Of a DNA stretch of 64,000 nucleotides, positions 1,052-12,941 are shown piece after piece. Origin of the DNA: Mycolicibacterium sp. YH-1 (GTDB lineage Bacteria > Actinomycetota > Actinomycetes > Mycobacteriales > Mycobacteriaceae); the NCBI RefSeq assembly GCF_022557175.1, contig NZ_CP092915.1, positions 248,001 to 312,000 of the forward strand. Reading direction: 5' to 3'. The translations under genes were made by a program, and so were the position numbers. Positions within the stretch are counted from its first letter, which is position 1. Every line of letters begins with the position of its first letter. The notes under the pieces are model-generated. The model saw only the letters and a list, made by a program, of their open reading frames with translations, ran no database searches and was not told the origin of the DNA.

Positions 1052-2848
1052 ATGAAGTCAACGATTCTGTCGCGCCGCGACCTGGACTTCCTGCTCTACG
1101 AGTGGCTGCGCGTCGACGACCTCACCAAGCGTGTCCGCTTCGTCGAGCACTCCCGCGAGACGTTCGACGGCGTCCTCGACCTGTGCGAGCAGCTGGCGAC
1201 CAGGTACTTCGCGCCGCACAACAAGACCAGCGATGCCAACGAGCCGACCTTCGACGGCACCCGCGTCACCGTCATCGGTGAGGTCAAGGAGGCGCTGGAC
1301 GCTTTCGCCGCCGCCGACCTGATCGGCATGACCGCCGACGAAAACCTCGGCGGCGCACAGCTTCCGGTGACCGTGGCGCAGGCGGCCTTCGCGTGGATCG
1401 CCGCAGCCAACGTGTCCACGTCGGGCTACGTCATGCTGACCGTCGCCAACGCCAACCTGATCGCGCACTTCGGCACCGAGGAGCAGATCGACGCCTTTGT
1501 CCGGCCGATGCTGGCTGGCCGGTTTCTCGGCACGATGGCGCTCTCGGAGACGCAGGCGGGGTCGTCGCTGGCCGATATCACCACCCGCGCCGAGCCGGTG
1601 GGCGATGGCACCTACCGGGTGTTCGGGTCCAAGATGTGGATCTCGGGCGCCGAGCACGACATGTCCGACAACATCATCAACCTGGTCCTGGCCAAGATCC
1701 CCGGCGGGCCGGCGGGCACCAAGGGTATATCGCTGTTCATCGTGCCCAAGTTCCTGGTGGAGCGCGACGGGGCGATCGGCGAGCGCAACGACGTGGCACT
1801 GGCCGGGCTGAATCACAAGATGGGCCAACGGGGTATCACCAACACCGTGCTCAACTTCGGCGACGGAACCTTCCAGCCCGGCGGCCAGCCCGGTGCCGTC
1901 GGCTACCTGGTGGGCGAGCCGCACCGCGGCCTGACCTACATGTTCCGCATGATGAACGAGGCGCGACTCGGTGTCGGGATGGGCGCGGTTGCGCTCGGCT
2001 ACACCGGCTATCTGAAGTCACTGCAGTACGCGCGGGAGCGCCCGCAGGGCAGACCGCCCACGGCCAAGGATCCGTCCGCGCCGCAGGTCCCGATCGTCGA
2101 GCATGCCGACGTCAAGCGAATGCTATTGGCGCAGAAGGCCTATGTCGAGGGCGGGTTGGCGCTGGCCCTGTACTGCGCGCGTCTGATCGATCTTCAGCAG
2201 ACGGCCGAGTCCGACGACGAGGCGGAGCGCGTGACGCACCTCCTGGACATCCTGACTCCGATTGCCAAGAGTTGGCCCTCGCAGTGGTGCCTGGCGGCCA
2301 ACGACCTGGCCATTCAGGTCCACGGCGGCTACGGCTACACCCGCGAGTACGACGTCGAGCAGCACTACCGCGACAACCGGCTCAACCCGATCCACGAGGG
2401 GACCCACGGGATCCAGAGTCTGGACCTGTTGGGCCGCAAGGTCACCCAGCACGGCGGCGCGAGCCTGGCCGTGCTCGGCGACGCGGTGCAGGCCACCCTG
2501 GCGCAGGCGACGACGCTCGGTGGCGAGGCCGCCGGCCTGGCCGCCACATTGGGTGCCTCCTGGGACAGGTTGCTCGAGGTGACGGCGGGAATGTTCGCCT
2601 CCGGCGACATCGAGGCAGCGCTGGCTAACAGCGTGGTCTACCTCGAGGCGTTCGGGCACGTGGTGGTGGCGTGGATGTGGCTGGAGCAGTTCATCGCCGC
2701 CGACGGCCGCGATGGCGACTTCTACGACGGCAAGCGGCAGGCCGCGCGGTTCTTCTTCCGCTACGAACTGCCAAGGACTGCGCCACAATTCGATCTTCTC
2801 GAGAGCATGGATCACACAACGCTCGATATGCGCGACAACTGGTTCTAG
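1052..2848 (+). CDS. Acyl-CoA dehydrogenase, long FadE5/DmdC-like type
   Basis: A 598-residue flavoprotein that should oxidise an acyl-CoA to the 2,3-enoyl-CoA and pass electrons to ETF. The order is an N-terminal helical domain, a beta domain (MALSETQAGSSLADI at about 170-190, then FGSKMWISGAEHD), a C-terminal helical domain with the catalytic base in IHEGTHGIQSLDLLG (Glu449), and an extra C-terminal region of about 130 residues. That length (about 600 rather than 380) is typical of FadE5 and of DmdC (3-methylmercaptopropionyl-CoA dehydrogenase). The start is ATG 1052, 10 bases after the TetR gene. The natural substrate cannot be told from sequence; a branched or substituted short-chain acyl-CoA is as likely as a fatty acyl-CoA. 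Confidence 0.9.
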   Translation: MKSTILSRRDLDFLLYEWLRVDDLTKRVRFVEHSRETFDGVLDLCEQLATRYFAPHNKTSDANEPTFDGTRVTVIGEVKEALDAFAAADLIGMTADENLGGAQLPVTVAQAAFAWIAAANVSTSGYVMLTVANANLIAHFGTEEQIDAFVRPMLAGRFLGTMALSETQAGSSLADITTRAEPVGDGTYRVFGSKMWISGAEHDMSDNIINLVLAKIPGGPAGTKGISLFIVPKFLVERDGAIGERNDVALAGLNHKMGQRGITNTVLNFGDGTFQPGGQPGAVGYLVGEPHRGLTYMFRMMNEARLGVGMGAVALGYTGYLKSLQYARERPQGRPPTAKDPSAPQVPIVEHADVKRMLLAQKAYVEGGLALALYCARLIDLQQTAESDDEAERVTHLLDILTPIAKSWPSQWCLAANDLAIQVHGGYGYTREYDVEQHYRDNRLNPIHEGTHGIQSLDLLGRKVTQHGGASLAVLGDAVQATLAQATTLGGEAAGLAATLGASWDRLLEVTAGMFASGDIEAALANSVVYLEAFGHVVVAWMWLEQFIAADGRDGDFYDGKRQAARFFFRYELPRTAPQFDLLESMDHTTLDMRDNWF

Positions 2849-2869
2849 CAGTCGCCATGCGTCGGGCGC

Positions 2870-2891
2870 TAATGCAGTATGTATTGCATTA
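2870..2891. promoter_or_regulatory. Candidate TetR operator TAATGCA-N8-TGCATTA
   Basis: Perfect 7-base arms TAATGCA (2870-2876) and TGCATTA (2885-2891) flank an 8-base spacer. The site lies 12 bases before the ATG of the TetR gene at 2904 and overlaps a possible -10 (TACAAT, 2890-2895), which would place the transcript start almost at the ATG. The same half-sites recur before the SDR gene at 3645 and 3679. This suggests autorepression plus control of the downstream cluster. Confidence 0.65.
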
Positions 2892-2903
2892 CAATCGGTG
2901 AAC

Positions 2904-3497
2904 ATGACGGAGTCACAGGCTGGCAAGCGGCGCCCTGGCGGTCGCACCGCTCGGACTCGGTCGCAGGTCCACGCCGCGGTGCGGGCGCTGCTCGGCGAGG
3001 GCAAGGACACGCCCTCGGTCCGTGAGGTATCGGAGCGATCCGGCGTTCACGAGGTGACGATCTATCGGCGCTGGGGTTCCATTGAGTCGCTCATCCTCGA
3101 CGTCGCCGTCACGCAGCTCAACGACGAATCCCCGTTCCCCAACTCGGGCGATCTGCGACGCGATATCCTCGATTGGGCGAATTCTGTTACAGCACAGGTG
3201 AAGACGCATGAGGGGTTCGCGCTGTTTCGTGCGTTGGCCATGGCGCGGTCCGCGTTGTACGTCCAGGATGGGACCGTTCCGACTGTGGATGCGACGACCT
3301 ATCTGCGTCGCAGAATGGATCAGATTCAAATCGCGATCGACCGCCACGAGGCCTTACACGGCGGCAGCGCGCCGACTGTCGAGATGATATTCGACATCGT
3401 GCTTGCCCCGATCTATCTCCGCGCAGTCTTCGGGTACTCGTCGCCGGACTTTGAAATTGAAGCGCTCGTTGACCGCGCGCTGCAGAGTGGCAGCTAG
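2904..3497 (+). CDS. TetR/AcrR-family regulator, probable controller of the adjacent catabolic cluster
   Basis: A 197-residue TetR-like protein. The DNA-binding region lies at about residues 15-60 (TRSQVHAAVRALLGEG, VREVSERSGVHEVTIYRRWG), followed by a TetR C-terminal helical domain. ATG 2904 is preferred over the upstream GTG 2898; both sit directly behind a candidate -10, so the message may be leaderless. Its own promoter contains the palindrome TAATGCA-N8-TGCATTA, and the same half-sites occur in the 300-base gap before the SDR gene. From context it probably represses the 3798-12941 genes and is released by their substrate or an intermediate. Confidence 0.88.
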   Translation: MTESQAGKRRPGGRTARTRSQVHAAVRALLGEGKDTPSVREVSERSGVHEVTIYRRWGSIESLILDVAVTQLNDESPFPNSGDLRRDILDWANSVTAQVKTHEGFALFRALAMARSALYVQDGTVPTVDATTYLRRRMDQIQIAIDRHEALHGGSAPTVEMIFDIVLAPIYLRAVFGYSSPDFEIEALVDRALQSGS

Positions 3498-3797
3498 AAG
3501 CGCAGCGCATCGCGGGTAGGGGCGCGCCCGTCCCCCAATCTGTGCCGGCGGCCACGCCGACGTCCGACCTCGGGTGACCTGGCAGATCCTTGGCGTGCGC
3601 AGGCGGCATCTCATCGCGCCCGAAACCAGTACTGCAAGAGATCTTGCATTAATGGGTGACCGGGGTCATACTTGGCCTTAATGCAGGATTAGTTACATTA
3701 GACCGGTGGCGGTGCACGCCTGGCGCAGCGCGCGACGGTCCGAATCTCCTGTGTTGCAACGCAGTTTCAGGTTCAGATCGACGAGATGAGGATTCCC
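3498..3797. promoter_or_regulatory. 300-base regulatory gap before the SDR operon with repeated TGCATTA/TAATGCA half-sites
   Basis: I see no gene here. It holds an inverted repeat TGCAAGA (3633-3639)/TCTTGCA (3642-3648), then half-sites TGCATTA (3645-3651) and TAATGCA (3679-3685), the same heptamers that form the palindrome before the TetR gene at 2904. The clustering 110-165 bases upstream of the SDR start fits an operator/promoter region for the 3798-12941 cluster. No obvious -35/-10 pair can be assigned with confidence. Confidence 0.55.
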
Positions 3798-4556
3798 ATG
3801 GCCCCTACGCACACATCCCTTAAAGGCAAGGTCGCGGTCGTGACGGGCGCCAGCTCGGGCATAGGCGCCGAGATCTGCCGCGAACTCAGCCAGTGGGGCG
3901 CGTCGGTGGCCCTGGTCGGTCGCGATGCGGGCCGCTTGGACAGTGTCCTCGACGACCTGACCTCCACCGGCGCGGACGCCATCCGTCTGTGCGTTGACAT
4001 CACCGACGACGATGCACCGGAGCAGGTCATCGGAGGGACGCTTGCGGCATTCGGCGCAATCGACATCCTGGTGCACGCAGCTGGCATCTTTCTTCCGACA
4101 CCCTTCACCGACACCCCCGACTCCGATCTAGACGCACAGTGGGCGGTCAACGTACGCGCTCCGTTTCGCCTGACCCGTTCTGCAGTGGAGCACCTCGGTG
4201 AGGGCAGCGCAGTGATCTTCGTATCCTCCATCTGCGGACATGTCGGCTTCCCCAACTCGAGCGCCTATTGCGCAACCAAGGGTGCTGTCGAACTCCTGGT
4301 CAAATCGCTGACAGCGGAGTTCGCGCCCAAGGGCATCCGCGTCAACGCCGTGTCGCCGGGCAACGTGCGGACGAGTATCAACGCCCACCTGCTCGCCGAC
4401 AAGGCCTACGAGCAGCAGATGCTCGACTCCACGCCGGCCGGCCGGGTCGGAGAGGTTTCCGATATCGCCCCGGCAGTCGCCTTCTTGGCCTCTCCTGCGG
4501 CCTCCTACATCCACGGGGCGAGCCTGCTCATCGACGGTGGGTGGGTCGCCTCCTGA
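3798..4556 (+). CDS. Short-chain dehydrogenase/reductase (SDR)
   Basis: A 252-residue classical SDR that should oxidise an alcohol or reduce a ketone with NAD(P). It has the TGASSGIGAE cofactor loop near the N-terminus, a modified NAG motif (VHAAG) at about residues 93-97, the catalytic Tyr157 and Lys161 in YCATK, and a C-terminal SYIHGASLLIDGGW signature. ATG 3798 follows the ribosome binding site GATGAGG; an in-frame ATG at 3786 lies inside that site and is less likely. It is the first gene after the half-site-rich gap and 52 bases before the kinase/lyase fusion, so it probably acts on the same compound or on the carbonyl the fusion makes. Confidence 0.9.
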   Translation: MAPTHTSLKGKVAVVTGASSGIGAEICRELSQWGASVALVGRDAGRLDSVLDDLTSTGADAIRLCVDITDDDAPEQVIGGTLAAFGAIDILVHAAGIFLPTPFTDTPDSDLDAQWAVNVRAPFRLTRSAVEHLGEGSAVIFVSSICGHVGFPNSSAYCATKGAVELLVKSLTAEFAPKGIRVNAVSPGNVRTSINAHLLADKAYEQQMLDSTPAGRVGEVSDIAPAVAFLASPAASYIHGASLLIDGGWVAS

Positions 4557-4608
4557 GAGGCCGCGGCACGGCCCGTCTCCCACGCTCTCGACCTAGCAGG
4601 AGTCACTC

Positions 4609-7041
4609 ATGTTGCCCAACAGCACTTCTCCGAACCTCACCTCTCGTCGCCACGGCAGGGATGTGAACGACGTATCCGCGTTCACCGCCCTCGTGGAGGA
4701 GAGCGGGCTCAACGCCGCGTCACCTCCGCTGCCCGAACAGGTCGTGGAGTCTGCACTGGCCACATGGTTCGGGATGACCGGGGAGTTGACCCGGATTCCG
4801 ACCGAGAAGGACGACACCTTCGAGCTCGACGGCAACACCGGGCGTCATCTCGTCAAGGTCAGCGGGGCACAGGAGGACCCCGGTATCGTGAACCTGCAGA
4901 CGGCCGCCCTGCGGCACATCGAGGCGGCATCCCCGCGTCTGCCGGTCCCACGGATGCGCCAGGGAACAGACGGCGCCTACGAGTACCGTCTGGCCGACCC
5001 GGCACACGGTGGTCGGGTCCTGCGGGTCATGTCATTCCTGTCAGGAGCGCCACTGAGCGGTACCGCCGCCACGCCGGGGCAGCTCCAGTCAGTCGGGGCC
5101 GGGCAGGCGGCCGTCACCAGCGCATTGAGCCGATTCCACCACTTCAGGCAGGACCGGCGTTTGGTGTGGGACCTTCGCCACTTCCCGGCTCTGCGAGTGC
5201 TTCTCGACAGCATCGACGACACGGCACATAGGCGACTCGCGTCGCAGGTGTTCGACAGCTTTCACGAAGTGGTGGCACCGCGCATACCTGGGCTGCGACA
5301 CCAGGTGGTGCACGGCGACTTCAGCACACACAACATTCTGGTGGACTCCGGGCAGGCCGAATTCGTCTCGGGGATCATCGACTTCGGCGACACCCTACGC
5401 ACCGCCGAGATATTCGACGTGGCGATCGCCATGTCGAACCTTCTAGACCCGGACGCCGCCGATCCATGGCACCGAGCCCTCGATCATCTGACTGGCTACC
5501 GGGCTCACCGGGAGATCGACGCCGACGAGTTGGCGGTCCTTCCCGTCGCGGTTGCCGCTCGCAGCGCGCAACGAGCGCTCATCGCACAATGGCGCGCTCG
5601 GCGCGACCCATCACGCGCCGACTACGTCCTCGCGCACGCTGCGCAGGACTGGCATGCACTCGAAGCGGTCGCCGCCGCTCCAGCGCCCCAGGCCGAGTTC
5701 TCGCCTCGTCGAAAGCCAGCCATGGTCAACGGTTTTGCGGCCGTTGACCTCGCCCGCCAACCCGCACCCAACCGAGCTCGAATCCAACGCCGACAACGGC
5801 TCCTCGGCCCCGGATATCAACTCTTCTACACCGATCCCGTCGACATTGCCCGGGGGAGCGGTGTCCACCTGTACGACTCCGACGGCCACGAATACCTGGA
5901 CGCCTACAACAACGTCGCGTCGATCGGACACTGCCACCCCGCCGTCGCCGATGCGGTGGCCGCACAGCTTCGCGTCGTCAACACCAATACGCGGTACCTG
6001 CAAGACCAGATCCTCGACTACTCCGAGGACCTCCTGTCGACCTTCCCCGCTGACCTGGACCGCGTGACCTACACGTGCACGGGGTCAGAGGCCAACGATC
6101 TCGCCATCCGGATCGCCCGCGCGCACACAGGCGCCGAAGGGATCATCGTCACCCGCAACGCGTATCACGGTGTCACCGAGACCGTCGCTGCGTTCTCACC
6201 GTCGCTGGGGCCGACCTCGCCGTTGGGGCCGCACGTGCGCCTCATCGAGGCCCCGGATGGGGGCCGCCTGCCGGGAGGCGACGTCGCGGAGTTCATGCGC
6301 CAGCAAGTCCGGCAGGCGATCGCCGACCTCAATCGACACGGCTACGGGCTGTGCGCCCTGGTGGCCGACAGCATCTTCTCCTCCGACGGTGTGTTCGCGA
6401 CGCCGACGTCAGTGCTCGGCGCCGTTGCCCAAGAAGTGCGACGGGCCGGCGGTCTGTACATCGCCGACGAGGTGCAGTCGGGCTTCGGCCGGACCGGTGA
6501 CGCGTGGTGGGGATTTCAGCGCCACGGCGTGGTGCCCGACATCGTCACCATCGGAAAGCCGATGGGCAACGGCATCCCGGTGGCAGCGGTGGTGCTGAAG
6601 CGCGCCGTGGGCAACGCCTTCGGCGACAACGTGCGCTACTTCAACACCTTTGGCGGTAGCAACGTGCCGATCGCCGCCGCCGGAGCCGTCCTCGACGTCA
6701 TCCGCGGCGATCGACTGATCGAGAATGCCCGGACGGTCGGCACGTATCTGCTCGACGAACTGCGGTCGGGCTGCGCATCGCGCGAACAGGTCTTCGAGAT
6801 CCGCGGCGCCGGGCTCTTCATCGGCGTCGACATCGTCGAGGATCGGCAGTCCGCAACACCGAACGGTGCTCTCGCCAAACAGATCGTCGACGACCTCCGC
6901 CGTAACTTCGTCCTGGTGTCGGCCTCGGGGCCCGAGGGCAACGTCCTGAAGATCAGGCCGCCGTTGGTCTTCGGTCGCGCACATGCCGACCGGCTGCTCG
7001 AGGCCTTCTTCGCCGCCTTCGACCGATGGAGTGAACGGTGA
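4609..7041 (+). CDS. Bifunctional amino-alcohol kinase / PLP-dependent phospho-lyase fusion
   Basis: An 810-residue two-domain protein. Residues about 30-350 are an aminoglycoside-phosphotransferase-fold kinase close to hydroxylysine kinase (AGPHD1/HYKK): catalytic HGDFSTHNIL (His235, Asp237) and metal-binding IDFGD (Asp258, Asp261). Residues about 385-810 are a class III aminotransferase fold with Asp620 (ADEVQSGFGR) and the PLP lysine Lys650 (GKPMGNG). The NNVASIGHCHP and NTNTRYLQD segments match ethanolamine-phosphate and 5-phosphohydroxylysine phospho-lyases (AGXT2L1/2) rather than true transaminases. Expected chemistry: phosphorylate the hydroxyl of an amino alcohol, then eliminate phosphate and ammonia to give an aldehyde or ketone. 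ATG 4609 follows AGGAG. It overlaps the PxpA-like gene by 4 bases (GTGA). The substrate is unknown. Confidence 0.88.
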   Translation: MLPNSTSPNLTSRRHGRDVNDVSAFTALVEESGLNAASPPLPEQVVESALATWFGMTGELTRIPTEKDDTFELDGNTGRHLVKVSGAQEDPGIVNLQTAALRHIEAASPRLPVPRMRQGTDGAYEYRLADPAHGGRVLRVMSFLSGAPLSGTAATPGQLQSVGAGQAAVTSALSRFHHFRQDRRLVWDLRHFPALRVLLDSIDDTAHRRLASQVFDSFHEVVAPRIPGLRHQVVHGDFSTHNILVDSGQAEFVSGIIDFGDTLRTAEIFDVAIAMSNLLDPDAADPWHRALDHLTGYRAHREIDADELAVLPVAVAARSAQRALIAQWRARRDPSRADYVLAHAAQDWHALEAVAAAPAPQAEFSPRRKPAMVNGFAAVDLARQPAPNRARIQRRQRLLGPGYQLFYTDPVDIARGSGVHLYDSDGHEYLDAYNNVASIGHCHPAVADAVAAQLRVVNTNTRYLQDQILDYSEDLLSTFPADLDRVTYTCTGSEANDLAIRIARAHTGAEGIIVTRNAYHGVTETVAAFSPSLGPTSPLGPHVRLIEAPDGGRLPGGDVAEFMRQQVRQAIADLNRHGYGLCALVADSIFSSDGVFATPTSVLGAVAQEVRRAGGLYIADEVQSGFGRTGDAWWGFQRHGVVPDIVTIGKPMGNGIPVAAVVLKRAVGNAFGDNVRYFNTFGGSNVPIAAAGAVLDVIRGDRLIENARTVGTYLLDELRSGCASREQVFEIRGAGLFIGVDIVEDRQSATPNGALAKQIVDDLRRNFVLVSASGPEGNVLKIRPPLVFGRAHADRLLEAFFAAFDRWSER

Positions 7042-7805
7042 ACACACGCAGCATCGACATCAACGCCGACGCAGGCGAGGGCTTCGGACGCTGGACCCTG
7101 GGTGACGACGCAGCCCTGTTCAAGTTCGTCACCACGACCAACATCGCATGCGGTTACCACGCCGGTGATCCCGTGACGATGCGTGTCGCCGTCACGCAGG
7201 CCCGCGATGCAGGTGTCGCCGTCGGCGCCCACCCCGGTTACCCCGATCTGTTGGGCTTCGGACGACGTGCGCTGCCCGCCACTGACTCCGACGTCGTGGA
7301 CTACATCATCTACCAAGTCGGCGCGTTGCAGGCGCTGGCGGCTTCCGAATCCGTTGCCTTGACGCACGTGAAGCCGCACGGCTCCCTGATGGGCCGGATC
7401 TGTCGCAGTCCCGAACTGGCCGTCGCCATCGCGACACAGCTGCAGGCCGTCATGGCCGGGCTACCCCTGATGTTCGCCCCAACGGCCGCGTTCGACGCCG
7501 TGCGCCGCGCCGGACTGCCCGCAATCCCGGAGAACGCCGCCGATCTCGACTTCGACGACGATGGCATCAACATTGTCGAACCGCGCCCCGAATCCAAGGA
7601 TCCCGAACAGGTGTCGGATCGTGCCGTCGAGATGGCACGCGGCAGCGTGACGACCGTATCGGGCTCCACGATCGCGATGCCCGTGCGTTCCATCTGCATC
7701 CACGGTGACCGACCGAACGCGGTCGCCATCGCCGCCGCAGTGAGGCAACGACTCGAACGGTCTGGCTTCGTCGTCCATTCGCACGCCCGCACGGAAGCCG
7801 ACTAG
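7038..7805 (+). CDS. LamB/YcsF-family (PxpA-like) lactam-opening subunit, divergent
   Basis: A 255-residue LamB/YcsF protein. In the canonical family PxpA works with PxpBC to open 5-oxoproline with ATP. Conserved parts are the N-terminal DINADAGEGFG, the NIACGYHAGDP block, VGAHPGYPD, HVKPHGSL and the C-terminal ICIHGD. The canonical EVFADRGY segment is absent: the equivalent region reads IPENAADLDFDDDGINIVEPR in part, so the substrate pocket probably differs. GTG 7038 overlaps the fusion stop, showing translational coupling to the kinase/lyase gene. I therefore call it PxpA-like, acting on an unknown lactam, cyclic imide or urea-type substrate. Confidence 0.85.
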   Translation: MNTRSIDINADAGEGFGRWTLGDDAALFKFVTTTNIACGYHAGDPVTMRVAVTQARDAGVAVGAHPGYPDLLGFGRRALPATDSDVVDYIIYQVGALQALAASESVALTHVKPHGSLMGRICRSPELAVAIATQLQAVMAGLPLMFAPTAAFDAVRRAGLPAIPENAADLDFDDDGINIVEPRPESKDPEQVSDRAVEMARGSVTTVSGSTIAMPVRSICIHGDRPNAVAIAAAVRQRLERSGFVVHSHARTEAD

Positions 7806-7807
7806 CC

Positions 7808-8710
7808 ATGCGAAGCGCTCCCTATCAGATACTTCACGATGGCACCCGCGTGAGCTTCGGCGGCGACGAGTTCATCTTCGTGGAAGTCGGCGAGGCGATG
7901 GACCTGGCTAAAGCGCTACGGATTCAGGCGATCACGACTGCCTTGGCGCAGACTGACGTCGTCGGCCTGGTCGACATCGTTCCCGCCAATGCGAGCTACA
8001 TGCTGCGGATCGAGCCGGAGTTGGCTGAGCAGCGGCAGTTGATCGGGTTGATGGCGGAACTGCACCAGCGATTCGCCGACTCGAACGCCGTCACTCTCGA
8101 CACCGAGATCGTGGAGATCCCGGTGTGGTACGACGACCCGTGGTCAGCGGAGACGTGCATGCGTTTCCGCGACCACCATCAATCCGACACCGAGACCGAC
8201 ATTCAGTACACCGCGCGGGTCAACGGATTCTCGTCGGTCGACGAGCTCGTCCTGGCGCACTCGTCGGCCCCCTTCATCGTGACCTTCCCGTGCTTCAAAC
8301 CGGGAAACACCGAGAGCGTTCAACTCGTGGAGCGCAGCAGACAGATACAGGCGCCGAAATACCTGCGCCCGCGCACGGATACCCCAGCCCGGGCCGTAGC
8401 GCACGGCGGCGCCTTCACCGTTGTGTATCCCACCCGCGGGGTTGGCGGATACCAGCTCCTCGGCCGGTCGCCCGTGCCGGTCGTCGATCTGACCCAGAGC
8501 ATTCCCGGGTTCGAGACCTCCATGGTGCTCACGCGGGCGGCAAGCCTTCTCAAGTTTCGCGTCATCGACGGCGATGAGTACCGGCACACGCGTGAGTGCT
8601 CGAAAGCGGGTCACTATGAGTACAGACGTCGTCCAGTAACCTTCGAGCTGGCCCGCTATCTCCAGAATCCGGACGCGTATGCGGCCGCGCTCACGGGTCA
8701 CCTCCGATGA
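7808..8710 (+). CDS. PxpB/KipI-like carboxyltransferase-domain subunit, divergent
   Basis: A 300-residue protein of the allophanate-hydrolase-subunit-1 (PxpB/KipI) family, longer than the usual 210-240 residues. Family features are the EIPVWYDD strand, an FKPG element where PxpB has GFQPGF, and GGYQLLGRSP near the C-terminal half. The usual PR-x-VPAGSVGI block is replaced by a different segment (about residues 181-205), so catalysis or ATP use may be altered. ATG 7808 comes 2 bases after the PxpA-like stop, and the gene overlaps the PxpC-like start by 4 bases, so the three subunits are made together. E. coli PxpB handles ATP-dependent phosphorylation of oxoproline; whether that holds here is open. 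Confidence 0.82.
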   Translation: MRSAPYQILHDGTRVSFGGDEFIFVEVGEAMDLAKALRIQAITTALAQTDVVGLVDIVPANASYMLRIEPELAEQRQLIGLMAELHQRFADSNAVTLDTEIVEIPVWYDDPWSAETCMRFRDHHQSDTETDIQYTARVNGFSSVDELVLAHSSAPFIVTFPCFKPGNTESVQLVERSRQIQAPKYLRPRTDTPARAVAHGGAFTVVYPTRGVGGYQLLGRSPVPVVDLTQSIPGFETSMVLTRAASLLKFRVIDGDEYRHTRECSKAGHYEYRRRPVTFELARYLQNPDAYAAALTGHLR

Positions 8711-9699
8711 TCACCGTGTGTCATGCTGGCGCGTACACGCTCATCCAGGACCTGGGGCGCGCGGGGCACTACGCGATGGGGTTGCCCCCGTCCGGGGCGC
8801 TCGATCAGTTCTCGCATCGCTGCGCCAACCTCCTGGTGGGCAATGATCCCAACGCGGCAACGCTCGAAATCACCATGATCGGACCGACACTCGAGTTCGC
8901 CACGTCGGCTCGAGTGGCCATCACGGGCGGTGATGTGCCGGTCTGGATCGATGGCGAGCCGCACGACAGTTGGCGCACGCTCGCCGTGCGTTCGGGGCAG
9001 ACATTGACCGTCGGCGCGTTGCACACCGGCTGCCGCGCCTACCTGGCTGTCCGCGGTGGCATCGACTGCCCTCCCTTTCTCGGGAGCCGTTCGACGTACG
9101 TCAGCTCCGCCATGGGTGGACTCAGCGGCTCGGCTCTGGCAGCCGGTGACCGGCTTTCGATCGGCAGTGACTCAGCAACCCCATGCCCCGGGGTGGGTAG
9201 CACCGTCGACAACCACCTGCGGCCGCCTCTCGGGGGTGAGGTCCACCGCGTGCGTGTCGTGGAAGGGCTGTGCCACTACCGATTCGATCCCGATAGTGTT
9301 GATGTCTTCTTCTCCTCGACCTTCACGGTCTCCTCGGTGTCCGACCGCACGGGATACCGCCTGATCGGGCCACCACTCGAATTCGTGCCCCGTGAACCGC
9401 CTTTCGGCGCTGGTGACAATCCGAGCAACGTCGTCGATCTCGGATATCCGATGGGGTCTATCCAGGTCCCCAATGGTGAGGAGCCCATATGCCTGCTGCG
9501 CGATGCAGTCACCGGTGGGGGATACGCCACCATCGGCACTGTCATCACCAGTGACCTGGACCTGATCGCGCAGATGAAGGCGCCGGACGCGATTCAGTTC
9601 ACACCCGTCTCGCTCGACAACGCCATGTCAGCGAGGAGAGTCCAACGACAGCGACTGAGAGAAGTGGAATTTGGCCTCAGACTTCTAGAACTCTTCTAG
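8707..9699 (+). CDS. PxpC/KipA-like biotin-dependent-carboxyltransferase-fold subunit
   Basis: A 330-residue allophanate-hydrolase-subunit-2 (PxpC/KipA, urea-amidolyase CT) protein. Typical elements are the N-terminal TLIQDLGRAGHYAMGLPPSG, the LEITMIGPTLEF strand, AITGGDVPVWIDG, the RAYLAVRGGID block and a YPMGSIQVPNGEEPICLLRD segment. This subunit keeps its family signatures better than the A and B partners. ATG 8707 overlaps the PxpB-like stop (ATGA). It presumably pairs with PxpB-like to form the carboxyltransferase-like complex. No biotin carboxylase or biotin carrier gene is nearby, arguing for an oxoprolinase-type reaction over a urea-carboxylase-type one. Confidence 0.88.
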   Translation: MITVCHAGAYTLIQDLGRAGHYAMGLPPSGALDQFSHRCANLLVGNDPNAATLEITMIGPTLEFATSARVAITGGDVPVWIDGEPHDSWRTLAVRSGQTLTVGALHTGCRAYLAVRGGIDCPPFLGSRSTYVSSAMGGLSGSALAAGDRLSIGSDSATPCPGVGSTVDNHLRPPLGGEVHRVRVVEGLCHYRFDPDSVDVFFSSTFTVSSVSDRTGYRLIGPPLEFVPREPPFGAGDNPSNVVDLGYPMGSIQVPNGEEPICLLRDAVTGGGYATIGTVITSDLDLIAQMKAPDAIQFTPVSLDNAMSARRVQRQRLREVEFGLRLLELF

Positions 9700-9873
9700 T
9701 GCCCAAACGCAGTACACCCCAGCTGGACACCCCCGCCAGGCACATGACCTCGCCGTTCACCGACATCGAGACTACGTGCCAAGGACGACCGGCGACAGGC
9801 CCAGAACCTGTGATCGTGCACACCAACCCGACGAGCGCTCTTTCCCGAAAGTGCTACCCCCTCAGGAGTTTCG

Positions 9874-11148
9874 ATGCCAACCCACGATGCCAGCACGGCC
9901 GCGGCCGCCGCACCAGCGGCCGATAGCCGCGCCTATCTCCCCGCAGCCACTCTGGGTGGCCGCGCGCTGTTCCTGCTTCTCATCCTCGACCTCGCCTACT
10001 TCATCAATGCGATGGACCGCCAGGTCTTCTCGATCCTGCTGCCCGACATCAAGACCGCCTATGGATTGACCGGCGGCCAGGCAGGCATCATCGCGACGAT
10101 CTTCACCCTCGGCATGGGACTGGCGGGAATACCGGCCGGCTACCTCGCTGACCGTTTTGGCCGCAAGAGGATCATCCTGATCAGCCTCGCCATCTTCTCG
10201 GTCAGCGTTGCGCTGCAGGCCACCGCCCTCGGCATCGTCGATATGACGTTGTGGCGCGTCCTGTCCGGCGTTGGCGAGGGAATGCAGAATGCCGCGCTAT
10301 TCGCCGCCGTCGGAGCATATTTCAGTCGCAACCGTGGATTCGCAATCGGTTCCATCAACGCGGCGTTCGGCCTGGGCGCCTTCACCGGCCCGATCCTCGG
10401 CGGTGCCATCGTCGCAGCCACCGGCGACTGGCGAGTTCCACTCGTCATCTTCGGCGGCATCGGAATCATAATCTTGATTCTGCTCCTGACGCTGGTACCC
10501 GAGTCCGTGACAGAAGTCGGCCGAAGTACACCCGCGAGCGACGCAAAGCGCAACGCTGACGAGACCGCACTGGGGTTCATCAACCGACGCGTCATCTGCG
10601 GTGCGATCGCCGCTGTGGCCGCAGGCTTCACCATTTATGGATACCTCGGCCTGTACCCCACATATCTGCGCGAGGCACATGGGTTCACAGCGACGCAGGC
10701 GGGCTGGGCAGCCAGCATGTTCGGCATCGGCGCACTCGGGGCGCTCGTGGGTGGTGCCATCGCCGATCGCGTCGACCAACGGATGCTGAACGTCGTCGGC
10801 TTCCTCGGCATCATGGGTCTCGGTGTTGCCATCTTCGCATTCACCACACCCCTGCCTGTGCAGATGTTCTTCTCACTGCTGCTTGGCATCTCATTCACCG
10901 GCATCGTCTACACCAACACCAGCACACTGCTGCAACGCTCTGTTGACGTCAAATACGTCGGTCGAGTGAGCGGACTCTTCGTAGCCGCCATGTACATCCC
11001 CGCCAGCGCCTCGGGTTACTTCTTCGCCCATATGCGCGACAGCTTCGGTTGGGAGATCGCAGGAGTCGTCCAACTGACGGTGATTCCCATCATCGGTTTG
11101 GTGGCGATGGCGGCGATGGGAAGAGCCCCGGCCGGGGGCAACCGATGA
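9874..11148 (+). CDS. MFS transporter, probable importer for the catabolic cluster
   Basis: A 424-residue major facilitator with about 12 hydrophobic segments in two halves. It carries the loop 2-3 motif GYLADRFGRKR and a DRQV charge in helix 1 typical of sugar-acid/aromatic-acid and spinster-like families. ATG 9874 follows AGGAG (9863-9867). The 174 bases between it and the PxpC-like gene hold no gene. The stop overlaps the in-frame ATG 11145 of the next reading frame, so it is coupled to the CocE-type hydrolase. From context it should carry the substrate that the kinase/lyase and PxpABC-like enzymes degrade; the direction of transport is inferred. Confidence 0.88.
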   Translation: MPTHDASTAAAAAPAADSRAYLPAATLGGRALFLLLILDLAYFINAMDRQVFSILLPDIKTAYGLTGGQAGIIATIFTLGMGLAGIPAGYLADRFGRKRIILISLAIFSVSVALQATALGIVDMTLWRVLSGVGEGMQNAALFAAVGAYFSRNRGFAIGSINAAFGLGAFTGPILGGAIVAATGDWRVPLVIFGGIGIIILILLLTLVPESVTEVGRSTPASDAKRNADETALGFINRRVICGAIAAVAAGFTIYGYLGLYPTYLREAHGFTATQAGWAASMFGIGALGALVGGAIADRVDQRMLNVVGFLGIMGLGVAIFAFTTPLPVQMFFSLLLGISFTGIVYTNTSTLLQRSVDVKYVGRVSGLFVAAMYIPASASGYFFAHMRDSFGWEIAGVVQLTVIPIIGLVAMAAMGRAPAGGNR

Positions 11149-11195
11149 ATCAGCCTCACCTGACGAGATTCGCAACAACAAGGGAAGGGTCCGAC

Positions 11196-12941
11196 ATGTC
11201 CGAGCACTACCCACCGATAAACGATCTACGGGACGGCATGCGCGTCGACTGGGACGTGAGAATCACGATGGACGACGGTGTCACGCTCGCCGCCGACATC
11301 TTCCGCCCCGACGACGACCAGCCGCACCCGGTGCTTCTGGCCGCCAGCCCGTACGGGAAGGGCCTGCCGTTCGCGGTGGGCTTCGCCAGCCAATTGCGCA
11401 GCCTCCTCACCGAACACCCCGAGGTCGCCGCGTCCTCGTCGAATGAGTACCAGGTGTGGGAGTACCCCGACCCCGAGCGTTGGGTGCCTGCCGGATACGT
11501 CTGCGTCCGCATCGACACCCGCGGGGCCGGCGCGAGCGAGGGAGCGATCGACTTCTTCTCACCGCGTGAGACGCAGGACCTGTACGACTGCATTGAGTGG
11601 GCCGCCGCGCAGCCGTGGAGCAACGGCAAGGTGGGGTTGCTCGGCATCTCGTATCTGGCAAGCAATCAGTGGCAGGTCGCCGAACTGGCGCCGCCGCACC
11701 TCGCTGCGATCTGCCCGTGGGAGGGTGCTTCCGACTTCTTCCGTGAGTACACCCACCACGGTGGCATCGCCACCGAGTTCATGCCGAGCTGGATGCCCTA
11801 TCAGGTGAAGAGTGTCCAGCACGGCCGCGGGGATGCGCAGCTCAACCCGCACACCGGGCGGCGGGTCTCGGGCAAGCCCATCCGCTCCGAGCGTGAGCTG
11901 GAGGACAACGCAATCGCCATCGGCGACGTCCTGCGCGCCAATCCGACACTCGGCGAATACTACCGCGACCGCTCGGCCGTACTCGAGAAGATCACGCTTC
12001 CAGTTCTTTCCGCGTCCAACTGGGGTGGCATGGGTCTGCACTCGCGTGGGAACTTCGAGGGCTTCTCTCGCGTTGCATCGGAGCAGAAATGGCTTGAAGT
12101 CCACGGGCTGGAGCACTGGACCGAGTTCTACACCGACTACGGTCTCGCCATTCAGCGGCAGTTCTTCGACCACTTCCTCAAGGGTGAAGACAACGGGTGG
12201 GATCGCCGACCGCCGGTGCAGCTCAAGGTGCGCACTCCGAACGACTTCTTCGTGCGCCAGGAGAACGAGTGGCCACTTGCCAGAACCCAGTGGACGCGGT
12301 TCTACCTCGACGCGAGTTGCGGAATGCTCTCGGAGACAACGCCATCTGGCGACAGCCACGCGGCGTTCAAGGCCCGCTCGGAGGGCGTCATGTTCAAGAC
12401 GCCGGTGTTCGACGACGACATCGAGATCACGGGGCCGGCGGCACTGAAACTGTTCGTGTCGTCGACCACCGCCGACGCGGACCTCTTCGTCACCATGCAC
12501 CTGTTCGACCCCAGCGGCACCGAAGTGCTCTTCCCGACGGCGTTCGAGCCCCACGGGCCCCTCGCTCAGGGGTGGCTGCGGATGTCGCACAGGGCGCTCG
12601 ACGAGGATCGGTCGCTGCCGTACCGGCCGTGGCACCACCACACCGAGATTGCCCCGCTGACACCCGGAGAGACCTACGAGGCCGACGTCGAGATCTGGCC
12701 GTTCTCCATCGTCGCCCCGGCCGGGTACCAGATCGGACTGTCGGTGCGCGGCCAGGACTACACCCACGACCTGGCTGGCGAGCCGGAGATCACCTACGGC
12801 CGCGAGATTCGCGGTAGCGGTGCCTACTGGCACGAACTCCCCGGCGACCGGGACAATCCCGTCTACGACGGCGAGACCACGCTCATCGGACGAGCCAGTC
12901 ACCGGCCATATGTCCTGCTGCCCGTGATCCCGAAGTCCTAG
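11196..12941 (+). CDS. CocE/NonD-family (peptidase S15-like) hydrolase
   Basis: About 581 residues from ATG 11196, behind the purine-rich AAGGGAAGGG. An alternative ATG at 11145 overlaps the MFS stop and would add 17 residues. It has the alpha/beta-hydrolase core of X-Pro dipeptidyl-peptidase and cocaine esterase: IRIDTRGAGASEG (oxyanion region), a serine nucleophile in GLLGISYLASNQW, and a His in LEHWTEFY. A C-terminal jelly-roll XPP domain follows (about 370-575: ITGPAALKLFVSSTTADADL and VRGQDY). No signal peptide is seen, so it is probably cytoplasmic. Such enzymes cut esters or amides. As the last gene of the cluster it may release the amino-alcohol or lactam part of a larger compound. 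Confidence 0.88.
   Translation: MSEHYPPINDLRDGMRVDWDVRITMDDGVTLAADIFRPDDDQPHPVLLAASPYGKGLPFAVGFASQLRSLLTEHPEVAASSSNEYQVWEYPDPERWVPAGYVCVRIDTRGAGASEGAIDFFSPRETQDLYDCIEWAAAQPWSNGKVGLLGISYLASNQWQVAELAPPHLAAICPWEGASDFFREYTHHGGIATEFMPSWMPYQVKSVQHGRGDAQLNPHTGRRVSGKPIRSERELEDNAIAIGDVLRANPTLGEYYRDRSAVLEKITLPVLSASNWGGMGLHSRGNFEGFSRVASEQKWLEVHGLEHWTEFYTDYGLAIQRQFFDHFLKGEDNGWDRRPPVQLKVRTPNDFFVRQENEWPLARTQWTRFYLDASCGMLSETTPSGDSHAAFKARSEGVMFKTPVFDDDIEITGPAALKLFVSSTTADADLFVTMHLFDPSGTEVLFPTAFEPHGPLAQGWLRMSHRALDEDRSLPYRPWHHHTEIAPLTPGETYEADVEIWPFSIVAPAGYQIGLSVRGQDYTHDLAGEPEITYGREIRGSGAYWHELPGDRDNPVYDGETTLIGRASHRPYVLLPVIPKS

Follow-up and report, generated by a model that had tools for sequence, protein, structure and literature searches.

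A conserved actinobacterial gene cluster that joins a kinase–phospho-lyase fusion to a PxpABC-like trio in Mycolicibacterium sp. YH-1

Introduction

Do a kinase–phospho-lyase fusion and three 5-oxoprolinase-like subunits encoded side by side in an actinobacterial genome belong to one pathway, and what might that pathway degrade? The question is raised by a locus of Mycolicibacterium sp. YH-1 (RefSeq assembly GCF_022557175.1), whose genome is one contig (NZ_CP092915.1) of 7.27 Mb and of which we analysed bases 248001-312000, a stretch of 64,000 nucleotides referred to below as the window. To judge from its list of genes, this DNA has a mycobacterial look. A previous sequence-only reading had proposed that a cluster at positions 2870 to 12941 of the window forms a new catabolic system. 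Here we find that the cluster is real and conserved, and that it unites known families in a new combination that is undescribed as far as our search of the open-access literature reaches; neither a pathway with this gene set nor biotin-linked Pxp operons were found described there. We consider it close to an even call that these genes form one TetR-controlled catabolic operon, in which biotin-type opening of an amide or lactam is followed by phosphorylation and the loss of phosphate and ammonia.

Results

The gene cluster

Every gene named in the sequence-only reading was recovered on the plus strand from open reading frames and Pfam/NCBIfam profiles. The core comprises an 810-residue frame assigned by Pfam as a fused APH-fold kinase and class III, pyridoxal 5'-phosphate (PLP)-type, phospho-lyase-like enzyme (4609..7041), and, within the same operon, all three PxpABC-like subunits: a PxpA-like (LamB/YcsF) subunit (7038..7805; PF03746, 257.9 bits), a PxpB-like carboxyltransferase subunit (CT_C_D; 7808..8710) with a urea-carboxylase-like C-terminal extension, and a PxpC-like carboxyltransferase subunit (CT_A_B; 8707..9699; assigned by PF02626 at 294 bits and by its place in the tree). 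Upstream lie a TetR-family regulator (2904..3497; PF16859 and PF00440 above cut-off) and a short-chain dehydrogenase/reductase (SDR; 3798..4556, with an alternative start at 3786; PF13561 at 203 bits, PF00106). Downstream, after a gap of 174 nt, are a major facilitator superfamily (MFS) transporter (MFS_1; 9874..11148; PF07690, 202 bits) and a CocE/NonD-family hydrolase (Peptidase_S15/PepX_C; 11145..12941; TIGR00976, 258.9 bits against a cut-off of 66.3), whose nearest PDB entry is 3ib3.

Overlapping starts had been claimed for the whole run from the fusion to PxpC. Overlaps of 4 nt indeed link the fusion to PxpA and PxpB to PxpC, but PxpA and PxpB are separated by 2 nt; the MFS and CocE frames also overlap by 4 nt (ATGA at 11145). 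The TetR gene, formerly drawn from 2870, most likely begins at the ATG at 2904 within a longest frame of 2712-3497, and an operator-like inverted repeat has its left edge at position 2870. The catalytic motifs of the block look intact, including the SDR motifs TGASSGIG (TGxxxGIG) and YxxxK and the serine motif of the CocE-type hydrolase, which were read by eye.

The gene order is conserved across genera

A scan with the lyase alignment over one genome per species returned 364 relatives, and the 80 best loci were retained. In a test that had been set beforehand, PxpA/B/C-like genes were found to adjoin the kinase and lyase at 11 of these 80 loci. The whole order TetR-SDR-kinase-lyase-A-B-C-MFS-CocE is kept in four, three from Amycolatopsis (L056, L057 and L059) and one from Actinosynnema (L058), with identities to the window of 63-76% (46-48% for the kinase), and the order SDR-kinase-lyase-A-B-C recurs in Actinomadura, A. 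jejuensis, Nocardia and Qaidamihabitans. As this block is conserved across genera, it reflects more than chance; together with a shared candidate operator, this co-occurrence bears out the earlier view that the genes belong together.

TetR genes 68-70% identical to that of the window and MFS orthologues of 65-68% identity occupy the same places in L056-L059, L169 (the same A. azurea locus as L057) and L170, and L062 carries a divergently placed TetR gene of 57% identity. An SDR orthologue (67-75%) lies 5' of the kinase in all ten window-type relatives among the best 80 lyase loci. The MFS carrier and the CocE-type hydrolase, previously listed among the members, are not core: L060, L062, L069, L079 and L087 are without both and carry nearby an APC permease, an FrsA-type alpha/beta hydrolase and a CoA ligase in their stead. 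Among the nearest solved relatives of the L060 hydrolase are 2,6-dihydroxy-pseudo-oxynicotine hydrolase, an acylaminoacyl peptidase and Ayg1; the first and last of these cleave carbon-carbon bonds adjoining ketones.

In a lyase tree of 110 rows, the window lyase falls in a 20-row clade with a Shimodaira-Hasegawa-like approximate likelihood ratio test (SH-aLRT) value of 99. All 13 rows of this clade that have genomic context adjoin a trio, the other seven being proteins without context. Two lyases outside the clade also adjoin a trio: that of L055 (Pseudonocardia), and that of L139 (genome G356), which came from a class-level PxpC scan in which 5 of 394 genomes matched at E <= 1e-80. The L055 association (6281-11314, Pseudonocardia spinosispora) is a further one, with a more distant trio (36-43%) in the order B-C-A-kinase-lyase. 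L236 and L237 both encode a kinase-lyase fusion (874 and 897 residues), a second lyase (53-55%), the trio and ABC transporter genes; L236 adds a biotin carboxylase (BC)-carrier fusion and an aldehyde dehydrogenase that, like those of the Nocardia-type clusters, scores best to succinate-semialdehyde dehydrogenase (SSADH). Scans of plasmids returned only PxpB and lyase matches, all below 60% identity. L081 and L169 were omitted as near-copies from the specificity, trio-residue and concatenated alignments.

A loop in the B subunit marks the kinase-linked trios

Alignments of the B subunit exhibit a loop that reads PGNxE in kinase-linked and PGLP in biotin-linked trios; in the window it is FPCFKPGNTE (residues 160-169; 8285..8314, plus strand), the signature of the kinase-linked clade. 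With a hidden Markov model (HMM) of the kinase, a kinase frame was found at 17 of 17 PGNxE loci (16 distinct, L169 repeating L057) versus none of 38 PGLP loci. Outside this count stand L055, which has a loop of its own and a kinase, and L230, which has neither a readable motif nor a kinase. PGNxE loci that came from the PxpB and PxpC searches (L139, L169, L170, L236, L237 and L238) have the kinase in 6/6, with the same repetition of L057 by L169. A kinase was expected beside proteins of the FMCFVPGNAE type before their context was seen, an expectation not recorded beforehand, and L236 and L237 each carry one. This single loop has so far been predictive of the metabolic partner.

The same count leads us to reject, as highly improbable, the explanation that an ethanolamine-type phospho-lyase and a 5-oxoprolinase, as modules independent of each other, have come to lie together by chance. 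Each family does have stand-alone jobs, and the YH-1 genome holds another, distant PxpABC set elsewhere, but the kinase count, a gene order conserved over several families and the shared candidate operator all argue against coincidence.

The trio belongs to a biotin-linked, urea-carboxylase-like lineage

The trio had been described as a divergent PxpABC, and its subunits are indeed homologues of PxpA, PxpB and PxpC; it is not, however, simply a 5-oxoprolinase. PxpA passes the subfamily model NF003814 (268.9 against 226), and PxpB and PxpC miss the NCBIfam equivalog cut-offs (TIGR00370, 57.6 against 145.55; NF045499, 213.5 against 500). In trees the trio does not group with E. coli PxpA or PxpC. 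With the exception of L055, all kinase-linked trios fall into a single clade in the PxpA, PxpC and concatenated A+B+C trees alike; this clade adjoins the biotin-linked lineage or is nested in it, and lies apart from E. coli PxpABC and from the other set of the YH-1 genome (L051). The concatenated tree has 57 rows, 15 of which make up this clade (SH-aLRT 99); kinase and lyase accompany every one of the 15, and at L139, the deepest branch of the clade, genes for a BC and a carrier are present. PxpB Lys184 (8357..8359, plus strand), the equivalent of Lys1605 in the Kluyveromyces lactis urea amidolyase (KlUA) and likely the general base of the urea carboxylase carboxyltransferase (CT) reaction, is kept in 11/11 window-type rows aligned; Arg occupies this position in E. 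coli PxpB, L053, KipI (2zp2) and 3mml/9yx5. The predicted fold of the B subunit is closest to urea carboxylase over the full domain, including the C-terminal extension. On the strength of tree, catalytic lysine and predicted fold, we therefore assign the trio to the biotin-linked, urea-carboxylase-like lineage. A branch of trios can now be separated from 5-oxoprolinase, though its members are named '5-oxoprolinase subunit', 'allophanate hydrolase' or 'urea carboxylase'.

An alternative reading gives the trio a different substrate and leaves the rest of the pathway unchanged: in place of a lactam it would open a urea or an open-chain amide, for instance an amino alcohol with a ureido or carbamoyl group, or else a cyclic carbamate such as an oxazolidinone, and the lyase would yield a simple aldehyde. 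The urea-carboxylase-like predicted fold of the B subunit, with its base kept, speaks for this alternative, as do the many relatives named 'urea carboxylase' in JGI, where names are automatic. Set against these points, the partner is PxpA (LamB/YcsF) rather than allophanate hydrolase; PxpA is summarised, in a paper on caprolactamase (PMC8453981), as probably having lactamase activity; and a urea carboxylase-type frame (1262 residues) is encoded separately in the YH-1 genome, at 4.60 Mb. We regard this alternative as rather unlikely.

Biotin carboxylase partners of related trios

An order-level PxpC scan of 397 genomes gave 29 at E <= 1e-80, namely the YH-1 genome, two of the window type (one being the A. 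azurea locus) and 26 others. When 20 kb was read around each of these 26, a BC gene was found in 25 (none at L194) and a small carrier frame with E[VI]MK in 22, and the kinase HMM detected no kinase frame at any of them. A further scan found matches in 19 genomes other than that of YH-1; at the 12 loci read, BC was present in 10/12 and the carrier motif in 11/12. Biotin-linked operons of the form PxpA-B-C with biotin carboxyl carrier protein (BCCP) and BC are widespread (L140, L171-L193, L221-L232), and that of L140 adjoins molybdenum hydroxylase and HpaB-type genes. In PDB entry 9yx5, the long-chain acyl-CoA carboxylase of M. smegmatis is listed in complex with a PxpB/C-like pair, MSMEG_0435-0436, and the role of this pair would bear on the use of BC-carrier proteins in trans.

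The kinase–lyase fusion

The best APH stretch of the fusion spans residues 68-300 and Aminotran_3 residues 411-803, in a layout of kinase (residues ~1-365) and lyase-like part (~371-810). The kinase, an APH fold with HGDxxxxN and DFGD motifs, keeps the invariant residues H235, D237, N242 and D258, and its predicted model lies near homoserine kinase and aminopropanol kinase. In the lyase part, K280 and D250 are invariant in the alignment, K280 being the PLP lysine (residue 650 of the fusion), and the nearest PDB relatives are the phospho-lyases 5g4i and 6tor. Eleven clade-specific positions occur among the specificity residues, none of them tied to a substrate.

An assembly accident is an unlikely source of the fusion, because a fused homologue on another contig (P0002) is 82% identical and the YH-1 genome has three further fused kinase-lyase frames (1.67, 1.95 and 5.72 Mb), besides a split pair (2.63 Mb). 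Kinase and lyase are separate frames in 11/11 trio-bearing lyase loci; the fused state is therefore derived. The suggestion that the fusion is the new element was accordingly set aside: in addition to the three further frames and the split state of the operon's conserved relatives, there are many fused homologues, and NCBIfam already profiles kinase-aminotransferase fusions (PRK06148, PRK06149). Within the window's genus, L035-L043 carry split kinase-lyase pairs (lyase 59-61%), several of which adjoin a frame of ~960 residues and aldehyde-dehydrogenase-like frames (neighbours read by eye), with no Pxp match at these loci; the pairs probably serve another amino-alcohol route.

Regulation and genomic setting

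The motif TTGCATTA occurs twice in the 64 kb against 0.16 expected, a number reached by 1 of 100 shuffles, and the degenerate motif TTRCATTA three times, reached by none of 100. One TTGCATTA site lies directly 5' of the TetR start, in the inverted repeat TAATGCAG-N6-TTGCATTA that we propose as operator 1 (2870..2891). The other lies 5' of the SDR, in a proposed operator/promoter region of the SDR operon (3644..3700) with TTGCATTA at 3644, TAATGCAG at 3679 and TTACATTA at 3693. TTGCATTA is also found 5' of the SDR in seven related loci (L056-L059, L062, L169 and L170) and was not found there in L060, L069, L079 and L087. In L062, three half-sites 16-66 bases 5' of the hydrolase, CoA ligase and permease genes suggest that the regulon of that strain takes in these genes as well. 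The operon is thus probably co-regulated through the shared candidate operator.

The operon block was probably acquired, because its third-position GC (0.70-0.83) is lower than that of the flanking FadE (0.89) and ADH (0.86) genes, and because in a scan of the genus (148 genomes, that of YH-1 included) the best lyases other than that of the window reach 60% identity, and those placed in the tree lie outside its clade. The FadE-type acyl-CoA dehydrogenase directly 5' of the operon (974-2848), which may or may not belong to it, is 60-62% identical to one in the Nocardia-type clusters L069, L079 and L238.

Discussion

Proposed pathway

In the pathway that we favour, the transporter would import an acylated or otherwise conjugated compound, which the hydrolase would trim. 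The A/B/C trio would then open an amide bond, most likely that of a small lactam: the B/C pair, as a urea-carboxylase-type carboxyltransferase, would carboxylate the amide nitrogen with CO2 from carboxybiotin on a BC/carrier protein encoded elsewhere in the genome, and the A subunit would hydrolyse the activated amide. From the resulting vicinal amino alcohol (H2N-C-C-OH), the kinase would phosphorylate the hydroxyl and the PLP lyase remove phosphate and ammonia to give an aldehyde or ketone; the SDR would probably either make the hydroxyl earlier or handle the carbonyl later. The gene set, its conservation, the shared candidate operator, the clade structure and the catalytic residues are read from sequence, and from them we infer the reactions, their order, the supply of biotin in trans and the substrate class. 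The route drawn in the sequence-only reading, from ester or amide cleavage through ring opening to phospho-elimination, thus survives in outline, as amide or ring opening that feeds a kinase and phospho-lyase, with its reaction details a matter of inference.

The reverse order has also to be considered, in which an amino alcohol, hydroxylysine for example, is the initial substrate of kinase and lyase, the resulting semialdehyde cyclises and is oxidised to a lactam of the 6-oxopipecolate type, and the trio opens that lactam. These families include hydroxylysine kinase and 5-phosphohydroxylysine lyase, and the SDR gene lies 5' of the kinase; however, the SSADH-like dehydrogenase of the Nocardia-type clusters and L236 could oxidise the free semialdehyde directly, and we judge this order very unlikely.

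Several observations weigh against the pathway that we favour. Window-type loci were scanned with a BC query and a wide carrier motif (the biotin-linked carriers read EVMK or EIMK), and no BC match was found within the initial 20 kb of the window, at L055 or at 12 related loci; carrier-motif matches in those same loci were only three and chance-looking (two at L056, one at L169). Neither BC nor carrier was seen around L237 and L238, and none of the eight BC-like frames of the YH-1 genome (46-53% to the L140 BC) adjoins the operon. Window-type PxpA carries Y118M and Y172F relative to nearly all other PxpA compared, and window-type PxpB G162C and D246S/T at positions kept in most others, changes that may signal altered chemistry. 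The PxpB of 9yx5, with Arg at the key position, is a weak parallel for biotin in trans. The kinase count is not fully independent, as ten of the 17 PGNxE loci came via the lyase search and one is the window, and the HMM alignment includes the kinases of the window, L055, L057 and L139; a PGN loop could be read in 108 of the 120 listed relatives of PxpB, the types FIGFMPGNAE and FPCFVPGNAE among them, with context seen for a minority only. The SDR is not present in L055, and no orthologue was seen in L139, L236 or L237; L236 and L237 each have two lyases; the L058 kinase frame (8169-9986) contains one in-frame stop, either decay or sequence error, for which it was left out of one analysis; TTGCATTA was not found 5' of TetR in L056-L059; and the CoA ligase, FadE and thiolase of the sister clusters fit no single scheme. 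The ring form of the opened amide is itself an assumption.

The absence of BC genes from the sequence inspected near window-type loci, together with residue changes confined to this branch, would also fit a trio that has dropped biotin and uses ATP directly on a lactam, as classical PxpABC does. Against this stand Lys184, kept in every window-type row where E. coli PxpB, L053, KipI and 3mml/9yx5 have Arg, and the BC and carrier that two members of the clade, L139 and L236, retain. We consider loss of biotin unlikely; the Arg type of the 9yx5 pair makes it slightly more probable, and both the favoured pathway and its boldest version slightly less so.

That version, a pathway for 4-oxo or 4-hydroxy pyrrolidones (tetramic acids and kin), we rate as quite unlikely. 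An enzyme like FrsA or pseudo-oxynicotine hydrolase, or CocE, would remove an acyl group; the SDR would reduce the 4-ketone; the trio, borrowing the cell's general biotin carboxylase, would open the lactam ring to give an acid of the 4-amino-3-hydroxybutyrate type; from it, kinase and lyase would yield succinate semialdehyde (or a 4-oxo acid); and the SSADH-like dehydrogenase of the sister clusters would oxidise that semialdehyde. If true, this would be a new catabolic route in which biotin-type lactam opening is joined to phospho-deamination. More broadly, the cluster offers a testable route for the breakdown of hydroxylated cyclic amides in actinobacteria, and raises the question of whether one biotin carboxylase, shared with other enzymes, can supply a carboxyltransferase of this kind.

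Comparison with known systems

A paper on riboflavin catabolism contains, one reference apart, no terms connecting that route with the cluster. The 1-amino-2-propanol kinase pathway is placed in a microcompartment and is not known to include an amide-opening trio. The kinase of that microcompartment (PDB 6ef6) is 19% identical to the window kinase. The PRK06148 and PRK06149 fusions likewise hold a kinase and a class III domain in a single chain (646 and 515 bits), but they are ~1000 residues long versus 810, and the scores lie well under the cut-offs of 1128 and 973. Ethanolamine-phosphate and 5-phosphohydroxylysine phospho-lyases and A1RDF1 (5g4i) share the class III PLP fold, are the nearest solved relatives and have an APH-fold partner kinase, whereas the window lyase sits in its own clade and is fused to its kinase. 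According to a 2021 paper (PMC8154272), the documented class III phospho-lyases besides PbfA are only ethanolamine-phosphate phospho-lyase and one close relative.

Among systems related to the trio, PxpABC 5-oxoprolinase (E. coli ybgJKL; C. glutamicum pxpTABC, PMC13274462) also has three homologous subunits and a transporter in one operon. The window trio differs from it in its clade, in Lys rather than Arg at PxpB 184, in the urea-carboxylase-type C-terminal extension and PGNxE loop, in PxpB and PxpC scores far below the NCBIfam cut-offs, and in its coupling to kinase and lyase. The CT domain of urea carboxylase (K. lactis urea amidolyase, PDB 3va7/5i8i; PMC5770610) matches the predicted B-subunit fold nearly throughout and shares the catalytic lysine and a PxpC-like half, but the window trio lacks attached BC and carrier domains, none was found in its vicinity, and its partner is PxpA-like rather than allophanate hydrolase. 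The nearest lineage to the window trio is that of the actinobacterial PxpABC-BCCP-BC operons, whose PxpC is 46-54% identical; these are set apart by their PGLP loop, by the BC gene that adjoins them in nearly all cases, and by the finding of no kinase frame beside them.

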